Positions 42,316 through 52,236 of a DNA stretch of 64,000 nt are shown piece by piece. Source of the DNA: Massilia mucilaginosa (GTDB lineage Bacteria; Pseudomonadota; Gammaproteobacteria; Burkholderiales; Burkholderiaceae_D); the NCBI RefSeq assembly GCF_011682145.1, contig NZ_WHJH01000036.1, positions 1 to 64,000 of the forward strand. Reading direction: 5' to 3'. The notes under the pieces are model-generated. The model was given only the letters and a program-made list of their open reading frames with translations, had not been told where the DNA came from and did no database searches. The number at the start of each line of letters is the position of its first letter. Within the stretch, counting starts at the first letter, position 1. A program made the position numbers and the translations under genes.

Positions 42316-45162
42316 ATGGAACAGATCCGCATTCGCGGCGCACGTACGCACAACCTGAAGAACATCAATCTCGACCTGCCACGCAACAAGCTGATTGTGA
42401 TCACCGGCCTGTCCGGCTCCGGCAAGTCGTCGCTGGCGTTCGACACCTTGTACGCCGAAGGGCAGCGCCGCTATGTCGAATCGCTGTCGGCCTACGCGCG
42501 CCAGTTCCTGCAGTTGATGGAAAAGCCCGATGTCGATCTGATCGAAGGCCTGTCGCCGGCCATCTCGATCGAGCAGAAGGCCACGTCGCACAATCCGCGC
42601 TCCACCGTCGGCACGGTCACCGAAATCCACGATTACCTGCGCCTCTTGTACGCGCGCGTTGGCACGCCTTACTGCATCAACCACCCGGACCACGCGCTGG
42701 CCGCGCAGACGGTGTCGCAGATGGTCGACGCGGTGCTGGCCATGCCCGAAGAGTCCAAGCTGATGATCCTGGCGCCCGTGGTGGCCAACCGCAAGGGCGA
42801 GCACAGCGACCTGTTCGAATCGATGCAGGCGCAGGGCTTCGTGCGTTTCCGCATCCAGAGCGGCACCCACGACGCCAAAATTTACGAGATCGACGACCTG
42901 CCCAAGCTGAAAAAAACCGAGAAGCACACCATCGACGTGGTCATCGACCGGGTCAAGGTAAACGCCGAAATCAAGCAGCGCGTGGCCGAAAGCTTCGAGA
43001 CCGCGCTGCGCCTGGCCGACGGGCGCGCCGTGGTGCTCGATATGGAGAACGGGGCCGAACACGTCTACTCCAACAAGTTCGCCTGCAACACCTGCGGCTA
43101 CTCGCTGCAAGAGTTGGAGCCGCGCCTGTTCTCGTTCAATAATCCGATGGGCGCCTGCCCCGAATGCGACGGCCTCGGTCACATCGAATTTTTCGACCCG
43201 CGCCGCATCGTCGCCTTCCCCAACCTGTCGCTGGCCTCGGGCGCGGTGAAGGGCTGGGACCGGCGCAACCAGTTTTACTTCCAGATGCTGTCGAACCTGG
43301 CGGCGCACTACGAATTCGATATCGACATGCCGTTCGAGCAGCTCGACCTGGCGTCGCAGCAGGCGGTGTTGTACGGCTCCGGCAAGACCTCGATCCCGTT
43401 CACCTACGTGAACGAGCGCGGTCGCACGGTCATCCGCGAGCACACTTTTGAGGGCGTGGTCACCAACCTGCAGCGGCGCTACCGCGAAACCGACTCGATG
43501 GCCGTCAAGGAGGAGCTGGCGAAGTTCATCAACGAGAAGCAGTGCCCGTCGTGCGAAGGCGCGCGCCTGCGCGTGGAAGCGCGCTACGTCAAGGTCGGCA
43601 CCGGCAAGCAGCAGCGCGCCATCTACGAGGTCGCGCGCAAACCCTTGCGCGAATGCCTGGACTTCTTCGAGAAGCTGACCCTCAAGGGCGCCAAGAAAGA
43701 GATCGCCGACCGCGTGGTCAAGGAGATCGTCTCGCGCCTCAAGTTCCTCAACAACGTGGGCCTCGATTACCTGTCGCTCGACCGCAGCGCCGATACACTC
43801 TCGGGCGGCGAGGCGCAGCGCATCCGCCTGGCCTCGCAGATCGGTTCGGGCCTGACCGGCGTGATGTACGTGCTCGACGAACCGTCGATCGGCCTGCACC
43901 AGCGCGACAACGACCGCCTGATCGAAACGCTCAAGCACCTGCGCGACATCGGCAACAGCGTGCTGGTCGTCGAGCATGACGAGGACGCGATCCGCACCGC
44001 CGACTACATCGTCGACATGGGGCCGGGCGCCGGCGTGCATGGCGGCGAGATCATCGCCGAAGGCACGCTCAAGGACATCCTCAAGAACAAAAAATCGCTG
44101 ACCGCGCGCTACCTGAATGGCTCGCTCAAGATCGCGGTGCCGAAGAAGCGCCACGAAGCGGACAAAAACAAGCAGGTGGTGATCACCGGCGCGACCGGCA
44201 ACAACCTGAAAAAGGTCACGCTCAAGCTGCCGGTCGGCCTGATGACCTGCGTGACCGGCGTTTCCGGTTCGGGCAAGTCGACGCTGGTGAACGACACCTT
44301 GTACCCGGCCCTGTCGCGCCACCTGTACGGCTCGCAGACGGAACCGGCGCCGCACGATGCGATCAGCGGCCTGGAACACTTCGACAAGGTCATCTCGGTC
44401 GACCAGGCACCGATCGGGCGTACCCCGCGCTCGAACCCGGCCACCTACACCGGCTTGTTCACGCCGATTCGCGACCTGTTCTCGGGCGTACCGGCGGCCA
44501 AGGAGCGCGGCTACAGCGCCGGGCGCTTCTCGTTCAACGTCAAGGGCGGGCGCTGCGAAGCGTGCCAGGGCGATGGCGTGATCAAGGTCGAGATGCACTT
44601 CCTGCCGGACGTGTACGTGCCGTGCGACGTCTGCCACGGCAAGCGCTACAACCGCGAAACGCTGGAAGTGCAGTACAAGGGCAAGAACATCAACGAAGTG
44701 CTGGGCATGACGGTGGAAGAGGCGCACGAATTCTTCAAGCCGGTGCCGCTGATCGCGCGCAAGCTGCAAACCCTGCTCGACGTCGGCCTCGGCTACATCC
44801 GCCTCGGCCAGAGCGCGACCACCCTGTCGGGCGGCGAGGCGCAGCGCGTCAAACTGTCGCTGGAACTGTCCAAGCGCGACACCGGGCGCACCCTGTACAT
44901 CCTGGACGAGCCGACCACCGGCCTGCACTTCCACGATATCGACCTGCTGCTCAAGGTGATCCACCGCCTGCGCGACCAGGGCAACACCCTGGTCATCATC
45001 GAACACAATCTCGATGTGATCAAGACCGCCGACTGGATCGTCGACCTGGGGCCGGAAGGCGGCGCGGGCGGCGGCAAGATCATCGCCGCCGGCACGCCGG
45101 AAGACGTGGCGGCCAATCCGGAGAGCGTGACCGGCAAATATCTGGTGCCGCTGCTGGCGTAA
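42316..45162 (+). CDS. uvrA: excinuclease ABC subunit A
   Basis: A 948-residue UvrA (E. coli: 940), the damage-recognition ATPase of nucleotide excision repair. It has two ABC modules: Walker [10 protein letters not shown] near residue 31 and GVSGSGKST near 650. Two zinc modules are CNTCGYSL...CPECDGLG and CEACQGDG...CDVCHGKR. Two signatures [16 protein letters not shown] and [16 protein letters not shown] are seen, with D-E-P Walker B motifs ([20 protein letters not shown]). The ATG at 42316 begins [16 protein letters not shown]. It is under the LexA box, with a small P-loop gene right behind it. Confidence 0.98.
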
Positions 45163-45172
45163 AGGAGCTGCG

Positions 45173-45658
45173 ATGCGCGTTCTGATCATGGGCAATTCGG
45201 GATCGGGCAAGTCGTCGCACGCGCGGCAGCTGGCCGCGCAGCACCAGTTGACGCACCTCGATCTCGACACCATTTTCTGGGCGCCGGGCGAGGTGGCGGT
45301 GGCGCGGCCGGCCTATGAAGTGCTGGCCGACCTGTACGCCTTCGTGCGCAGCTATCCCGACTGGGTGGTGGAGGGCTGCTACGGAGACCTGATCGAAAAG
45401 GCGCTGCCGTTCTGCACGCAGCTGGTGTTCATCAATCCTGGCAAGGATGCCTGCATGGCCAACAACGCCCAGCGGCCGTGGGAGCCGCACAAGTACGCGT
45501 CCAAGGAAGAACAGGACAGCATGCTGCCCTACCTGATGAAATGGGTGGGCGAGTACGACGTGCGCGACGACACCTGCTCGTACGCTTTTCATCGCCGCGT
45601 GTACGACGCCTTCCCGGGCGCCAAGCGCGAAGAAGAGCGATCCTCCCACGGCGCCTGA
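45173..45658 (+). CDS. P-loop NTPase, adenylate/shikimate-kinase-like
   Basis: A 161-residue protein starting ten bases after uvrA. MRVLIMGNSGSGKSSHARQLA is a Walker A loop; LDLDTIFWAPG and YPDWVVEGCYGDL resemble the topology-like DNA/shikimate-kinase group (FlaR-type), which usually has a Trp/Arg lid. It may be cotranscribed with uvrA. The substrate is unknown. The C-terminus is charged and lacks a distinct domain. Confidence 0.78.
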   Translation: MRVLIMGNSGSGKSSHARQLAAQHQLTHLDLDTIFWAPGEVAVARPAYEVLADLYAFVRSYPDWVVEGCYGDLIEKALPFCTQLVFINPGKDACMANNAQRPWEPHKYASKEEQDSMLPYLMKWVGEYDVRDDTCSYAFHRRVYDAFPGAKREEERSSHGA

Positions 45659-45795
45659 TTCGCTGCGCATGGCCCGGGCTGCGCCGTTCGCCGGCACGCT
45701 CCTTTCCCCTTGGCATTAGCACCCTGAGATTGAGCCGCGATAAATCCCCCGCCGGTCCCCAACCCTAAGCTGGAGGCTGCTTCGAAACGGGGGAA

Positions 45796-47532
45796 ATGAT
45801 GAACGCACAGTCTTATGCCGACAAGGCAGCGGCGCTTGCCGCCCAACGCTATCGCCTCAAGTCACCGATGACGATCGACAGCCAGCAGCTGGCGCAGCCG
45901 GCATCTTGCGCGCCGCTGCACTGCTTCACGGTGGTCGACGCGGCCGACGCCAACGGGCGCGCATACACGGTCATGTTCGACCAGCACGGCGTGGAGCTGA
46001 ACGGCGCGGCGGACCGCGCGCCCGAGCTGCGCCGCCTGTTCGAGCGCGCCCGCAGCGTGCTGCACACGGCCGACGCGGTCCCGCTGGCGCCGGTCACGAT
46101 CAATCCGGCCAGCAATGTGCTTACGCTCGATCCGGGCCAGGTCCTCGATGAAACCATCACCGTCACGATCCCGAAAAGCGCGGCGGCGGTCAAGGCCGAT
46201 GTGTATTTCCTGGCCGACAGCACGGGCTCGATGGGCGCCATCCTCGGCGCCGTCCAGGCCGGCAGCGCGAACGTGCTGGCGGCCCTCAACGGGCTCGGCG
46301 TGGGCCTCGCCTACGGGGTCGGCAACTACAAGGATTTCGGCTCGGGCGACCCGTACGGCTTCCAGCACCAGCTCAGTCCGACCAATGCCGCGCCGGCCGT
46401 CAGCGCCGCGCTCAACGCCTGGTCGGCCAGCGGCGGCGCTGACGGCCCCGAGGCCGCCCTGTTCGCGCTCGACCGCCTGGCCGAAGCACCCGGCGGCGCC
46501 ATCGGCTGGCGCGCCGGCAGCAAGCGCATCATCGTCTGGTTCGGCGACGCGCCCAGCCACGACCCGATCTGCGGCGCGGTGTCGGGCGCACCGGCCGCCG
46601 TCACCGAGGCCAGCGCCACCGCGAAACTGGTGGCCGAGGACATCACGGTGCTGGCCATTTCCACCGCCAACCCGGGCCTGGACGGCGACCCCACCGCCGG
46701 CGCCGTCAACTACGTGGCGCAGTGCGGCGCGCCCGGCGGCACGCCCGGCCAGGCCACCCGCATCAGCGGCGCCACCGGCGGCGCGCTTGCCATCGGCATC
46801 AACGCGGGCACCATCGTCGACACCATCATCGACCTGGTCACGGGGGCGGTCGGCACGATCCAGAACGTCAAGCTGGTGCCGTCGGCCAGCGTGGCGCCGT
46901 TCGTCACGTCGATCGTGCCGGCCGGCGGCTACGGTCCGCTGGCCGGCGACCAGGAGCACGTGCTGACCTTCCGCGTGCGCTTCACCGGCCTTGCCTGCGC
47001 CGCCGAAGACCAGGTGATCACCGGCACGCTCGACGTACTCGCCGACAGCAGCATCGTAGCCAGCAAAAAGGTGCAGATCACCGTGCCGGCCTGCGCCGTC
47101 ACCTATGCGGTCAAGTTCCTCTGCGGCGTGCAGCCGGACTGCGGCTGCGAGTGCGTGCCGGTGCAGGCGGGCGCGTACGCCACCGAGATCAACATCCACA
47201 ACTATTCGCTCAAGCCGGTCGTGCTGCGCAAGCGCTTCGTGCCGCTGGTGCTGGCCGGGGCCCCGGCCGGGCGCGAACCGCGCGCGGCCGCTCCGCGCGC
47301 CGAGGAACGCATGCAGTTGCCGGCCCAGGCGGCCACGATGGATGACTGCTGCCGCATCATGGAGCGCCTGCTCGGCGCGGCGCCGGCGGGCACCACGCCG
47401 CTGACCATCGGCATCCTGGAGATCACCGCCAGCGCCGCCGTCGCGGTCACCGCGGTCTACACCACCAGCGCCACGCAAGCCGGCGGCGGGGTGTCGATCC
47501 GCGTCGAACAGATCACGCCAAGCCGTCATTGA
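45796..47532 (+). CDS. von Willebrand factor A protein with Cys-rich C-terminal domain
   Basis: A 578-residue protein of unknown function. Residues 1-120 are an uncharacterised N-terminal region with no signal peptide. The vWA domain (about 135-355) has the MIDAS motif DSTGSM (D141, T143, S145), the GADGPEAALFALDRL loop and IIVWFGDAPSHDP. A beta-rich stretch (360-435) follows. Residues 437-578 form a domain (YAVKFLCGVQPDCGCEC, then ATEINIHN, LVLAGA, ATMDDCCR, LTIGILEI) repeated almost exactly in the next protein. GGGGGAA precedes two adjacent ATGs. Eleven bases separate it from the protease-vWA gene, so they form one operon. Confidence 0.85.
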   Translation: MMNAQSYADKAAALAAQRYRLKSPMTIDSQQLAQPASCAPLHCFTVVDAADANGRAYTVMFDQHGVELNGAADRAPELRRLFERARSVLHTADAVPLAPVTINPASNVLTLDPGQVLDETITVTIPKSAAAVKADVYFLADSTGSMGAILGAVQAGSANVLAALNGLGVGLAYGVGNYKDFGSGDPYGFQHQLSPTNAAPAVSAALNAWSASGGADGPEAALFALDRLAEAPGGAIGWRAGSKRIIVWFGDAPSHDPICGAVSGAPAAVTEASATAKLVAEDITVLAISTANPGLDGDPTAGAVNYVAQCGAPGGTPGQATRISGATGGALAIGINAGTIVDTIIDLVTGAVGTIQNVKLVPSASVAPFVTSIVPAGGYGPLAGDQEHVLTFRVRFTGLACAAEDQVITGTLDVLADSSIVASKKVQITVPACAVTYAVKFLCGVQPDCGCECVPVQAGAYATEINIHNYSLKPVVLRKRFVPLVLAGAPAGREPRAAAPRAEERMQLPAQAATMDDCCRIMERLLGAAPAGTTPLTIGILEITASAAVAVTAVYTTSATQAGGGVSIRVEQITPSRH

Positions 47533-47543
47533 GGAGAAGCAGC

Positions 47544-50500
47544 ATGTCCCACATTACAGGAACCATACAAGTCCTCGGCGCGCCGCTGGTGGTCGGGCCG
47601 GGCCTGACGGTGTTCAACCCGCCGGCCTCGCCGCAGCCGGGCGGCACCAAGCTGCTGATGCTGCATTTCCAGAACCTGGCCTTCGCGCCGGGTGACCGCT
47701 TGCAGGTCAACCTGGGCTACGACGTCGACACCTTCACGGCCGCCGACGGCCCCGCTTTCTGGACGCGGCCGATCAATGTCTACGCCTTTCCGGCCGGCGT
47801 GCAGATCACCTACATCGCCGCCGGTGCGCCCACCGGCAGCGTGCAGCTGGACCAGTACGGGCGCGGCGAGCGCCACATCGGCGAAGCGCCGGTGCATATC
47901 AGCTTTTCCAATAGCGACCCGTTCTACCAGGGGCCGTCGTATGAAGAGCCGGACTACGATCCCTTCTGGTATTGCAGCGAGCCGCCAAATTGGGAAAACG
48001 CTTCCTGCGCCACGCCGCCGGCCGACGTGCGCGCGCGCGTCGCCCGCAGCGCCGGCATGATCGTGTCGGTGCACGGCGCGCATCTGTCGACCTGCTCGGT
48101 CACCCTGGTCGACGGCGACAAGATCATCACCGCCGGCCATTGCCACACGCCGGCCGAAGCGCTCAGCAGCTCGGTGACGTTCGACTACCGCACCGAATGC
48201 GGCGGCGCCCGCCCGCCCGGCTACAACCCGCGCTTCTACAAGGTCAAGGCGGTGCTGGCGCACCGTTGGGACGGCAGCGACGACTACAGCCTGCTGCAGC
48301 TGGCCGAAGCCCCGCCCGGCGTGCCGTCGCTGCAAATGCGGCACGACCTGCCGCTGCCGAGCGAGCAGGTGTTCGGCGTGCACCACCCGAACGGCGCGGT
48401 CAAGAAACTGTCGCTGCCGCACGCGCAGGGCTTTGCCGGCGTCGAGGGCAGCGGCGCCTTTGCCATTACGGTGCCGACCACCTTCGACGTGACGGGCGGC
48501 AGTTCAGGCTCCGGCCTGTTCGACCTGGCCGGCCGCATCACCGGCGTGCTGTCGAAGGGCGACCCATGCCACGGCGGGCGCCTCGGCTATTTTCCCAGCG
48601 CGACCATCCTGCAGCGGATCGTGCCGACGCCGCCGCCGCCCATCACGCGCGACGTCATGCTGGTGTTCGACCGCTCGGGCAGCATGGCGCTGGACGACGG
48701 CAGCGGGCGCGCCAAGATCGAGTCCGCGCGCGACGCCCTGTCGCTGTTCGTGCAACTGGTCCGCAGCGGCACCGGCAACCGCCTCGGCCTGGTCTCGTTC
48801 AGCAGCGCGGCCAGCGCCCCGGTCGACTTTGCGCTCGCCCCCGTGACCGACGCCGCCAAGAACGCCCTGGTCGGGCCGCCGCCTTACATCGGCGGCAGGC
48901 TGCCCACGCTCACCCCCGGCGGCAATACCTCGATCGGCGCCGGCCTCGATGCCGCGCGCGCGCAGCTGGCCGCCGCCCCGGGCGCCAATCCGCGCGCCAT
49001 CCTCCTGATGACGGACGGCCTGCAAAACACCGCGCCGTCGATCGCCAGCATCGAGCCGGCCCTGGCCGGGATCACCGTGCACGCGATCGGCTTCGGTGCC
49101 GAGTCGAGCCTGGATGGCACCCTGCTCAGCGCCGTGGCCACGGCGCACGACGGCCTGTACACGCGGGCCGGCGGCGCCCTGGCGCTGGAAAAATTCTACG
49201 CCACCGCGTTCGGGAACATCTTCGAGACCGGCATCCTGCTCGACCCGGAATTCGACCTGGGGGCCGCGCAACAAGCCGGCACCCCGGTGCCGTTCCGCGT
49301 CTGCGGCGAGGACGCCATCACCGCCATCGCCGGCTGGGACAACAGCGGCGCCACCCTGCAGGTGGAGGTGACCACCCCCAGTGGCGCCGTGCTGACGGCG
49401 GCGGTGCCCGGCGTGGCCGGCGAGAGCGGACGCACCTGGGCCTTCCTGCGCATCGCGCTGCCGATCGGCGGCGAACGCGATGGCCTGTGGCACATCAACG
49501 TGGTGCGCCCGCGCGCGATCCCGATCCCGCTGGCGCGCCAGGGGTGGCCGGCGCTGCGCTACTTCGTCAACGTCATTCCCAGCGGGGGCGCGCGCATGAG
49601 CCGTACGCGCGAACCGGTGTGGCAGTACACCGGCGACGAGATCAACCCGATGGTGCTGGTGCGCCATGAAGACGGCGGCTGGCCGCGCAATATGCAGGCG
49701 AGGCTGACCGTCACGCGGCCCGATACGGGTGTCGGCAACCTGCTCAGCGAGACCGGGCTGGGCGCGCCCGGCAACGTTGGCGGCGACCTGATCCCGCCGC
49801 GCCACGCCACCCTGCAGGCGCTGGAGAAAGCGCGCGGCCGGCCGGTGGTGGGCTACGTCCAGACCGAACTGGCACTCTCCGGCGACTCTTTCAACACCCG
49901 CGGCAGCTTCGAGGAAACCGCCACCGTCGGCCGCCGCCTGGCGGACTTCCTGACGGTCGAAGGCAACTACACCTTCCACGCCAGGGCCACCTACGGCGAC
50001 GAGTGCACCGGCATGCGCGAGCTGACCTGGTCGGTGCATGTCGAGATCGGCATCGACGGCGGCCAGACCGACGCCACCATCACCGACCTGCCGCCGCGTC
50101 CGGACGGCGGAGCATGCTACCGGATGCGCTTCACGCCGCGCGACAAATACGGCAACCGGCTCGGGCCGGGGCGCGCCGACGGCTTCAGCGTGGAGGCCCA
50201 GCCGGGCAGCACGCCAATGGGAGCGGTGCTCGACGCCGGCGACGGCAGCTACCAGGTCGACGTCTGCACCGAGCCGGGTTCGCTGGAGCCGCCGCGCATC
50301 GGCCTGGCGCAGCCGGGCCGCCCGGCCGCCGTGGTCGCGCCGGCCGGGTTCACGCTGTACGCCTACAGCGTCAAATTCCTGTGCGGCGAGCAGGAAGACG
50401 GCTGCTGCGAGTGCGCCCCGGTGCGGCCGGGCCGCTATTCGACGGAGATCAATATCCACAACGGGTACGACAAGCCGGCACCGCTGCTCAAGCGCGTCAT

Positions 50501-50792
50501 TCCGCTGGTGCTGGCGGGGGCGGTGCTGGGGCGCGAGCCGCACTTTGCGCCGGCCACCACGCTGGAGACGCTGCTGCTGCCGGCGCACAACGCGACGATG
50601 GACGACTGCTGCCGCCTGGCCACGCTGCTGCTGGGCGCGGCACCGGCCGGGCCGCTGCCGCTCACGGTGGGGATACTGGAGATCATCAGCACGGTGGAGC
50701 TGAGCGTGACGGCGGTCTACACGGCGGGCGACGTCCGGCATGCGCCGTCGATCGATGTGCAGCAGATCACGTCCAGGGTGCTCAAGCTGTAG
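47544..50792 (+). CDS. trypsin-like protease fused to a vWA domain
   Basis: A 1082-residue multidomain protein; no family member of this architecture is known to me. Residues 1-165 are an unrecognised beta-rich region with no signal peptide. A chymotrypsin-fold protease (165-355) has H199 in IITAGHC, an Asp in GSDDYSLLQL (D246 or D247) and S321 in GGSSGSGLFD. After a PPPP linker comes a vWA domain (370-555) with MIDAS D376-x-S378-x-S380 (DRSGSM). A beta-sandwich region (560-720), an Ig/filamin-like stretch near 850-930 (CYRMRFTPRDKYGNRL, DGSYQVDV) and the shared Cys-rich domain (941-1082: YSVKFLCGEQEDGCCEC, STEINIHN, ATMDDCCR) follow. ATG 47544 follows GAGGAGAAG. Role unknown. Confidence 0.88.
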   Translation: MSHITGTIQVLGAPLVVGPGLTVFNPPASPQPGGTKLLMLHFQNLAFAPGDRLQVNLGYDVDTFTAADGPAFWTRPINVYAFPAGVQITYIAAGAPTGSVQLDQYGRGERHIGEAPVHISFSNSDPFYQGPSYEEPDYDPFWYCSEPPNWENASCATPPADVRARVARSAGMIVSVHGAHLSTCSVTLVDGDKIITAGHCHTPAEALSSSVTFDYRTECGGARPPGYNPRFYKVKAVLAHRWDGSDDYSLLQLAEAPPGVPSLQMRHDLPLPSEQVFGVHHPNGAVKKLSLPHAQGFAGVEGSGAFAITVPTTFDVTGGSSGSGLFDLAGRITGVLSKGDPCHGGRLGYFPSATILQRIVPTPPPPITRDVMLVFDRSGSMALDDGSGRAKIESARDALSLFVQLVRSGTGNRLGLVSFSSAASAPVDFALAPVTDAAKNALVGPPPYIGGRLPTLTPGGNTSIGAGLDAARAQLAAAPGANPRAILLMTDGLQNTAPSIASIEPALAGITVHAIGFGAESSLDGTLLSAVATAHDGLYTRAGGALALEKFYATAFGNIFETGILLDPEFDLGAAQQAGTPVPFRVCGEDAITAIAGWDNSGATLQVEVTTPSGAVLTAAVPGVAGESGRTWAFLRIALPIGGERDGLWHINVVRPRAIPIPLARQGWPALRYFVNVIPSGGARMSRTREPVWQYTGDEINPMVLVRHEDGGWPRNMQARLTVTRPDTGVGNLLSETGLGAPGNVGGDLIPPRHATLQALEKARGRPVVGYVQTELALSGDSFNTRGSFEETATVGRRLADFLTVEGNYTFHARATYGDECTGMRELTWSVHVEIGIDGGQTDATITDLPPRPDGGACYRMRFTPRDKYGNRLGPGRADGFSVEAQPGSTPMGAVLDAGDGSYQVDVCTEPGSLEPPRIGLAQPGRPAAVVAPAGFTLYAYSVKFLCGEQEDGCCECAPVRPGRYSTEINIHNGYDKPAPLLKRVIPLVLAGAVLGREPHFAPATTLETLLLPAHNATMDDCCRLATLLLGAAPAGPLPLTVGILEIISTVELSVTAVYTAGDVRHAPSIDVQQITSRVLKL

Positions 50793-50859
50793 GCGAGCCA
50801 TGCAGAAGCGGCACAGTTCATATCCGCACGCGCCGTCTTTTGTTCCTGGCAGGCCGGGA

Positions 50860-52236
50860 TCACGGCGCGCCAGCGCTCCAGCCGCCGCCGAGCGCGCGGT
50901 ACAGCGCCACCATATTGTTCACCTGGTTCTGGCGCAGCGTCACCGCGTTAAGCTCGACCTGGTACAGGTTGCGCTGCGCATCGAGCACTTCCAGATACGA
51001 GGCATAGCCGGCCTGATAGCGGTCCCTGGCAAAGTCCAGCGTGCGCGTGAGGATGTCGCGGCGCTTTTGCGCGTGTTCCATCTGGGTTTGCAGGCGCGTC
51101 ACGCCAGCGAAGGCGTTTTCGACTTCGCCAAAGGCCGTCAGCACCACGCCGCGGTAGGCAAACGCCGCCTGGTCGCGCTGCGCGGTGGCGGCATCGACCT
51201 GCGCGCTCAAGCGCCCGGCGGAGAAGACCGGCGCCAGCACGCTGGCGCCCAGGGTCCACAAGGTCACGGGATCGTAATCGCGCCCGTTGGTCAACAGGCT
51301 GCCGAACTTGGCGCTGATGGTCACATGCGGCAAAAAATCGGCGCGCCGCAGCGCCAGGTTGGCATCGCTCGCGGCCAGCAGCAACTGACCCTGGGCGATG
51401 TCGGGCCGGCGCGCCAGCAGACTTGATGGTATCGACGCCGGCGCCGGCAACAGCGGCAAGTCCTGGAAGCGGCGTTCGCGCGGCACCGCGCCGGGCAGCT
51501 CGCCCGTGAGCACGCGCAGCGCGTTCTCCTGGCGGCGGATGGCCAGTTCCAGTTCGGGAATCGCCTGCAGCACCGTTTCGTTTTCGTTTTGCGCCTGGCT
51601 CAGTTGCAGCTGCGAGGTGTAGCCCACGCGCGCCTGGTCGGACGCGAGGCGCAGCGCTTCGGCGCGCGAGGCCGCCGTCCCTTTGGTGATCCGCAGCTGG
51701 GCGTCCAGCGCCAGCAAACCCACGTAGGCCTGCGCCGTGCTGGCCGCCACCGACAGCGCCACGCCATCGCGTTCGGCCTGGCTGGCCTGGTACTGCAGCG
51801 AGGCCGCGCGCGACTGCTGGCGCAGGCGGCCGAACAGGTCGAGCTCCCAGCTGGCCTGCAGTTCCGGTTGCAGCGAGCGCGAATTGACCAGTGCCGCGCC
51901 GGCCGGCGCGCGCGCCGACGCCGCGCCCAGCACCGCATTCACGGCCGGCAGCGCCGCCGAATCGGCCACGGTCACGAGCGCGCGCGCCTGATCGACGCGG
52001 GCCACGGCGGCGAGCACGCTGGTGTTGTGCGCCAGCGCCGCTTCCACCAGCGCGGTGAGGGCAGGATCGCCGAAGGCGCGCCACCACTGCGGATCGACCG
52101 CGGCTGGTCCGGCCGGGCCGTCGCGCCAGGCATCGGGAAGCGTCACTGTCGAGAGCGGCGGCGCGGGACGCGGCGCCGGCATGCAGGCAGTCAGGCCGCA
52201 GGCCACGCCCGCGGCAAGGAAGACGCGGCGCCTCAC
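50860..52236 (-). CDS. outer-membrane efflux factor (NodT/OprM type)
   Basis: A 458-residue OMF, the trimeric outer-membrane channel of a tripartite pump. The lipoprotein-type start has GLTACM. Two OEP repeats include PELQASWELDLFGRLRQQSRA and LLARRPDIAQGQLLLAASDANLALRRADFLP, with the R-R-P-D motif and the second tunnel helix (RDRYQAGYASYLEVLDAQRNLY). The ATG overlaps the HlyD stop by four bases. It is the last gene of the MFS-HlyD-OMF operon. Confidence 0.93.
   Translation of the reverse strand: MRRRVFLAAGVACGLTACMPAPRPAPPLSTVTLPDAWRDGPAGPAAVDPQWWRAFGDPALTALVEAALAHNTSVLAAVARVDQARALVTVADSAALPAVNAVLGAASARAPAGAALVNSRSLQPELQASWELDLFGRLRQQSRAASLQYQASQAERDGVALSVAASTAQAYVGLLALDAQLRITKGTAASRAEALRLASDQARVGYTSQLQLSQAQNENETVLQAIPELELAIRRQENALRVLTGELPGAVPRERRFQDLPLLPAPASIPSSLLARRPDIAQGQLLLAASDANLALRRADFLPHVTISAKFGSLLTNGRDYDPVTLWTLGASVLAPVFSAGRLSAQVDAATAQRDQAAFAYRGVVLTAFGEVENAFAGVTRLQTQMEHAQKRRDILTRTLDFARDRYQAGYASYLEVLDAQRNLYQVELNAVTLRQNQVNNMVALYRALGGGWSAGAP

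Follow-up and report, generated by a model that had tools for sequence, protein, structure and literature searches.

A predicted integrin-beta-headpiece-like protein and a predicted trypsin-fold protease, encoded side by side in Massilia mucilaginosa, end in the same rare C-terminal domain

Within 64,000 nucleotides of Massilia mucilaginosa contig NZ_WHJH01000036.1 (the whole stretch analysed, hereafter the window) lie two adjacent genes whose products end in the same cysteine-containing C-terminal domain (CTD). Gene 1 encodes a protein that, judged from its predicted structure, is integrin-beta-headpiece-like, and gene 2 encodes a predicted trypsin-fold serine protease with an intact catalytic triad and a von Willebrand factor A (vWA) domain of its own. 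We tentatively favour a reading, to which we give somewhat less than an even chance, in which the products constitute a metal-dependent binding head outside the cytoplasm, to which a serine protease is joined by way of the CTDs. The initial annotation had reported two genes of 578 and 1082 amino acids (aa) separated by 11 bases, and these coordinates were confirmed; the layout is as follows.

45796..47532, + strand: gene 1 (P0001, 578 aa), with an N-terminal domain, a predicted integrin-beta-type hybrid/betaI head and the CTD
45796..46071, + strand: gene 1 N-terminal domain, residues 1-92; the model shows a helix followed by strands, and the head match starts at about residue 93
46072..46185, + strand: gene 1 predicted hybrid domain, part 1, residues 93-130; from the model and from the alignment to integrin beta-6 ahead of betaI
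46186..46854, + strand: gene 1 predicted betaI (vWA) domain, residues 131-353; metal-ion-dependent adhesion site (MIDAS) residues D141, T143, S145, E219 and D251, and also D216
46855..47094, + strand: gene 1 predicted hybrid domain, part 2, residues 354-433; from the predicted model and structure alignment
47095..47529, + strand: gene 1 shared CTD, residues 434-578; no convincing Pfam match
47533..47543, + strand: intergenic gap of 11 bases with GGAG, the likely ribosome-binding site of gene 2
47544..50792, + strand: gene 2 (1082 aa), with an N-terminal domain, trypsin-like protease, vWA domain, further region and CTD
47544..48038, + strand: gene 2 N-terminal domain, residues 1-165; from profile search
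48039..48629, + strand: gene 2 trypsin-like domain, residues 166-362; triad H199, D247 and S321
48651..49148, + strand: gene 2 vWA domain; D376, S378, S380, T462 and D491 form a MIDAS motif by eye
49221..50363, + strand: gene 2 region 560-940; beta-rich, by eye only, with no Pfam match
50364..50789, + strand: gene 2 shared CTD, residues 941-1082

Gene 1 had been described as encoding a vWA protein. The vWA domain is present, but it is predicted to lie inside an integrin-type hybrid domain that had been overlooked, and the description undersells the protein. In Pfam scans gene 1 matched Integrin_beta (PF00362) at 2.5e-7, over the cut-off, and also the vWA model of the Dictyostelium Sib proteins (PF24909); at E 0.01 or better, Integrin_beta matched 16/16 members of the gene-1 alignment and PF24909 matched 14/16. 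An AlphaFold model built from these 16 sequences had a mean predicted local distance difference test score (pLDDT) of 78.9 and a predicted TM-score of 0.52. When it was used as a Foldseek query, the best 50 matches listed were all integrin beta chains, the top one at 3.7e-14. Structure alignment by VIA-align gave Z 20.6 with integrin alpha4beta7 over 294 residues, in the model range 92-429; among the 50 rows listed, all of them integrins, Z ranged from 17.7 to 20.6, and other families may follow beyond these rows. Because the aligned range takes in the strands before the vWA domain, the vWA domain itself and the sandwich that follows it, residues ~93-433 can be modelled as a hybrid domain with betaI inserted. 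Independently, the sequence profile of the gene-1 family matched integrin beta-6 at 2e-9, in an alignment that starts in the strands before betaI and in which F-x-H-x-L-x-x-T and G-W-R stretches are visible.

The residues of the putative metal site are conserved within the family. Nine residues (D141, T143, S145, D216, E219, G237, W238, R239 and D251) are invariant in all 16 proteins, and gene 1 has the MIDAS pattern of DxSxS, Glu and Asp, with a Thr (T143) replacing the first Ser. The predicted head thus resembles the integrin beta headpiece in topology, with betaI inserted in hybrid, ~300 residues aligned and the MIDAS kept, whereas in other respects gene 1 departs from an integrin beta chain. 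The aspartates of the site adjacent to the MIDAS (ADMIDAS) are not kept, position 147 being Asp in 0/16 and position 148 in 1/16. A different N-terminal domain, which occupies the position of the integrin PSI domain, and the CTD stand at the flanking positions; gene 1, scanned as a whole, gave no Pfam match to PSI or I-EGF. There is also no recognised tail; as regards a transmembrane helix, the most hydrophobic 19 residues (1.89) start at residue 536, in predicted CTD strands 24 residues before the end, and among the relatives the corresponding maximum (1.19-1.89) varies in position and strength. No integrin alpha-subunit partner was found among the ten neighbouring genes scanned, the rest of the genome not having been searched for one. 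Integrin_beta was found in 1/299 sampled Pseudomonadota genomes, the window's own, and in 0/14 control genomes; in this and the other large genome samples, part of the first-pass candidates per genome were scored.

The initial annotation's complete trypsin-like triad plus vWA domain in the larger protein was borne out. Gene 2 matched Trypsin_2 at 3.2e-9 and VWA_2 at 1e-10, Trypsin and Trypsin_2 both being over the cut-off for the window's protein, and Trypsin_2, Trypsin, VWA and VWA_2 matched all five members of the gene-2 alignment. H199, D247 and S321 are invariant in 5/5. The triad Asp had been left as D246 or D247; because position 246 varies across these proteins, it is D247. Cysteines 184 and 200 presumably stand at the place of the Cys42-Cys58 bridge of secreted trypsins. 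The start of gene 2 is an ATG (MSHITG), kept in 5/5 aligned proteins including the window's; a TTG start in the mechanical open reading frame list would lengthen the product by 5 aa.

Profile matches of gene 2 were to lysyl endopeptidase 9omd (2.6e-7) and to the vWA domain of CLCA1, 6pyo (3.6e-6; 4.9e-5 with the sequence alone). The triad, the Trypsin models and the 9omd match are thus held in common with lysyl endopeptidase and other S1 trypsin-fold proteases, whereas here the protease is one part of a 1082-aa chain that also contains an N-terminal domain, a vWA domain, a further region and the CTD. CLCA1, which we take to be an animal metalloprotease-vWA protein without the CTD, has an enzyme followed by a vWA domain, as in gene 2, and a vWA sequence match, but differs in protease class. 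A profile of the first ~360 residues of gene 2 had matches in 11/266 genomes of the class, end-to-end in the window's gene only; the remaining matches covered the protease part only, from profile position 195 on, and no other scored candidate in the 266 genomes matched the N-terminal domain (1-165). The AlphaFold model of gene 2, from five sequences, was too poor for use (mean pLDDT 34.7). Residues 378-656, comprising the vWA domain and the stretch after it, are shared by a Microvirga plasmid protein annotated as tyrosinase (L079:3861-6473) and by a Haloarcula plasmid protein that is tyrosinase-like by eye (L080:2615-5491), so that the layout of an enzyme with this type of vWA region recurs.

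The shared domain of roughly 140 residues likewise stood up: the CTDs of gene 1 and gene 2 are 58% identical over 138 aa (E 2e-42), a likeness that is not due to chance, and a CTD search of the window's genome returned these two genes only. Nor does the CTD appear to be a well-known secretion tag. Among 34 members scanned with Pfam, three had one weak match each (best 0.024), which we took as chance, and NCBIfam gave no CTD match in the two window proteins. Three cysteine columns are near universal (32/34, 34/34 and 33/34 members). The CTD was found in 3/245 genomes of the family and 3/398 of the phylum, the window's own included, and in three other phyla in 1/296, 3/199 and 1/194, each of these counts including the centre genome, a known carrier. 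When one genome for each of 84,980 species was scanned for the exact peptides ATMDDCC or VKFLCG[VE]Q, 28 loci were obtained; such peptide-based counts are lower bounds, biased to the DDCC subgroup. The CTD is thus a rare, undescribed domain present in several phyla.

It occurs in several architectures, with gene calls in the relatives coming from a crude caller made for this analysis. An integrin-like head with the CTD is present in 19 loci including the window, one of which (L033) is cut by a contig end and another, in an actinobacterial metagenome-assembled genome (MAG; L031:6700-8468), has the gene split by a frame break. The protease-vWA type with the CTD is found in six loci, namely the window, L011, L012, L013, L014 and L016. 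The CTD stands alone in Bradyrhizobium, Chitinophagaceae, Chthoniobacterales, Halanaerobiales and Duganella (L016), and distant members lie in larger multi-domain proteins (one with a CARDB domain) or behind signal-peptide-like starts (two). A Thermoanaerobaculum MAG has three CTD genes, one with a signal-peptide-like start (L075:1393-2067, L076:817-1992). Alignment A2 leaves out copies of the window's locus (L001, L004-L006, L009) and of L011 (L007, L010), L012_6, in which N letters run on, and L029, in both frames because of a frame break; G212 and G639 are, by coordinates, the same genome.

The two genes are paired from the side of the protease. In 6/6 protease-type loci the gene immediately upstream, on the same strand, encodes a CTD, with gaps of 11, 61, 9, 11 and 16 bases in five of them and a gap that a run of N makes unmeasurable in L012. 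One of the six, the Deltaproteobacteria pair (L013), is on a 5.4-kb MAG contig that could be misbinned. The upstream gene is integrin-like in 5/6; in Duganella sp. 1411 (L016) it encodes a 144-aa CTD alone. Because this lone CTD falls among the integrin-type CTDs (support 95/92), the head would seem to have been lost and the CTD kept, and this case, in one genome, is the strongest single argument for the CTD as a coupling part. The initial annotation had looked to co-occurrence in other genomes as support for a system, and this holds for the protease type but only in a minority of loci for the integrin-like gene, as set out below.

In a tree of the CTDs, gene type required 4 label changes against a mean of 13.9 in shuffles, so that the grouping of the CTDs follows gene type more closely than genome. 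Three changes rather than one are required for the integrin type, and the protease-type CTDs form one group with weak support (49/16), so that a single origin of each type is not established. One group (92/82) comprises the Oxalobacteraceae integrin types, that of the Deltaproteobacteria MAG and the Duganella CTD.

We propose that the gene 1 head, with betaI inserted in the hybrid domain, would hold an acidic group of a ligand through its MIDAS metal, and that gene 2 would supply a trypsin-fold serine protease with its own vWA domain. The cysteine-containing CTDs, which may be the natural coupling part of the pair, would pair mutually or dock on one common partner, and the head would thereby bring the protease to its target. 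The vWA domains may also gate the protease, as the initial annotation suggested.

A place outside the cytoplasm appears the more likely on sequence features. Seven cysteines are invariant in 16/16 gene-1 proteins and ten are present in 12/16; cysteine totals are even in 14/16 gene-1 and 5/5 gene-2 proteins. Together with Cys184/Cys200 of the protease and the relatives with signal-peptide-like starts, these favour an oxidising compartment.

Several observations weigh against the proposed coupling outside the cytoplasm. No classical signal peptide was recognised in 16/16 gene-1 and 5/5 gene-2 proteins, signal peptides and membrane segments being judged from hydropathy and charge only, without SignalP. 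The gene-1 N termini are polar in 16/16 (12-residue maxima 0.13-1.45), and in the window's gene 1 the open frame extends for just nine codons upstream of the start, too few to conceal a signal peptide there. Hydrophobicity at the gene-2 N termini is moderate, at 1.25-1.89 as compared with 2.13 and 2.34 in two signal-like controls, and a charged start is lacking in 5/5; on a 15-residue measure the window's gene 2 reaches 1.85, near the controls at 1.89 and 1.96, so that a signal is possible in this protein. An Arthrobacter agilis plasmid protein (L078:5061-6425) speaks for the proposed reading in having a signal-peptide-like start and 28.8% identity over the gene-1 head region; against this, it falls below the Integrin_beta and Sib cut-offs. 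No CTD match was seen in it.

A further difficulty is that the integrin-like gene has no protease-type neighbour in 14/19 loci. In 13 of these 14 genomes (all but that of L037) a CTD search, which would miss a protease gene lacking the CTD, found no protease-type gene elsewhere; the genome of L022 has two further CTD genes, neither of protease type. The integrin-like gene must therefore function without the protease in these lineages. Beside the lone gene, a small gene with a similar, coiled-coil-looking product follows in three related genomes (L008:941-1333, L015:8488-8859, L017:8525-8917). A type VII link was considered for Phycicoccus (L034:5168-6465), where the integrin-like gene is preceded by an EspC-like (type VII) gene and the one after that, with similar genes by eye in L035 and L036; no EspC-like gene stood out by eye at the loci of Kribbella and Cellulomonas.

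Could the CTD instead be an export or surface-attachment domain? The two proteins would then use the same non-classical route, or reach the same surface, with no mutual complex, and their adjacency would reflect the shared route. We consider this somewhat unlikely. It would account for the varied partners of the CTD, which is joined to an integrin-like head, a protease or other multi-domain proteins, or stands alone. In a Chthoniobacterales MAG (L023:537-3567) the type VI genes VipA, VipB and Hcp are immediately preceded by a gene that encodes a CTD alone, and VipB is present in 5/6 protease-type genomes, the window's included, the exception being the L013 MAG. Against this, VipB was found in 9/26 CTD genomes searched and in 0/9 actinobacterial ones, a distribution on which we rejected the CTD as a general type VI tag, and the two distant CTD proteins with signal-peptide-like starts of their own indicate that the CTD is not the export signal there.

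That the products are two independent proteins with a duplicated CTD, in a recent operon with no joint function, we regard as distinctly unlikely. The many loci with gene 1 and no gene 2 are what such independence predicts, but it does not explain why gene 2 has a CTD gene upstream in all six loci from the CTD search, which would not detect such proteases without a CTD, the Deltaproteobacteria MAG included, or why the CTD alone is retained beside the protease in Duganella; the N-terminal-plus-protease search, with no other full match in 266 genomes, also argues against it.

The surroundings of the pair bear on its history. The pair is flanked by uvrA and a small P-loop gene on one side and by an efflux operon on the other. 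Pfam scans of the ten neighbours (39.7-58.7 kb) identified GST, DUF6622, SSB, UvrA, the small P-loop gene (AAA_33 match below cut-off), an outer-membrane efflux protein, HlyD, MFS, PEPCK and a 2-hydroxyacid dehydrogenase; as the initial annotation stated for the adjacent genes, none of the ten is a MoxR ATPase. A sigma-70-type promoter scan of 45150-51050 found no site, a result that carries little weight in a GC-rich genome.

The pair, as in the window, adjoins uvrA at L011 and L012, the two Janthinobacterium loci, and at L011 it also adjoins pck. It was not at the corresponding site in 6/6 congeners examined, and 0/16 congeners had a CTD match, with the upstream P-loop gene present in 8/16. 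In 4/6 congeners the site holds a YhgA-like Transposase_31 gene (L090:3717-4745) or a relative of it (L091, L093, L094), the Transposase_31 call having been made by Pfam on L090 only, and in a fifth (L095) there is a 39-aa remnant; this gives the place the look of a swap site. Synonymous divergence between the window and L011 was lower for the pair (0.27 and 0.28) than for uvrA (0.50) or the dehydrogenase (0.77). The ratio of nonsynonymous to synonymous change (dN/dS) was 0.45 and 0.37 for the pair, as against 0.12 for uvrA and 0.26 for the dehydrogenase, by a plain Nei-Gojobori count on one genome pair. Site, divergence and tree all fit an exchange of the pair between genera, which suggests horizontal spread as a unit with fast protein change; the alternative is loss in many lineages.

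Carriage of the pair as phage or plasmid cargo was considered and rejected. Gene 1, the one of the two that was searched in phage records, had no match there; a scan of viral contigs yielded a single pattern match and no CTD relative; and plasmid records, one for gene 1 and two for gene 2, matched the head or vWA region only.

Patchy distribution, the Transposase_31 gene or relative at the site in congeners, protein change faster than in two conserved neighbours by dN/dS and the want of a recognised classical signal peptide would also suit an intracellular conflict or defence pair, in which the integrin-like protein would recognise a component of an invader and thereupon activate the protease, as in the vWA-MoxR conflict systems with trypsin parts of which an excerpt of PMC7159879 tells; we hold this to be improbable. 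Those systems have vWA and trypsin-like parts in common with the pair, whereas here there is no MoxR among the ten neighbours scanned, the vWA domain of gene 1 is predicted to be integrin-type, and PADLOC gave 0 matches for both window proteins, on which ground a known defence system was rejected. There is also no NTPase or nucleic-acid part, the upstream P-loop gene occurring in congeners that lack the CTD, and the invariant cysteines and trypsin-type cysteine pair fit an oxidising compartment better.

Among the close parallels to gene 1 are cyanobacterial integrin-beta-chain-like proteins, which have one table line in PMC2651865; these and the Dictyostelium Sib proteins (PF24909) resemble gene 1 in having an integrin-beta-type vWA domain in bacteria or protists. 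The consulted portion of PMC2651865 mentions no CTD, protease neighbour or hybrid domain for the cyanobacterial proteins, so that they are set apart from gene 1 by description only. A literature search of titles and abstract openings, not aimed at the CTD, returned nothing on the pair, and we do not regard its novelty in print as established.

The integrin beta head is commonly regarded as a eukaryotic adhesion module, and for bacterial relatives we found only the one-line mention just cited. A bacterial head with an intact MIDAS and a predicted hybrid domain would permit direct tests of metal-dependent ligand binding, and of the betaI-hybrid arrangement without an alpha chain. The pair adds a testable prediction, that a binding head and a protease are coupled through a single domain, and the partner of the CTD could be found by pull-down. 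A bolder reading, which we think unlikely, is that some bacteria, through proteins such as that of gene 1, have a true integrin-type head, homologous to the headpiece of animal integrin beta chains in both sequence and fold, as a metal-dependent adhesion receptor; in the paired lineages its CTD would clip it to a serine protease, making a modular surface machine for 'bind and cut' that is passed between bacteria as a unit. If this were true, the evolution of the integrin head could be studied with such proteins as a prokaryotic outgroup.

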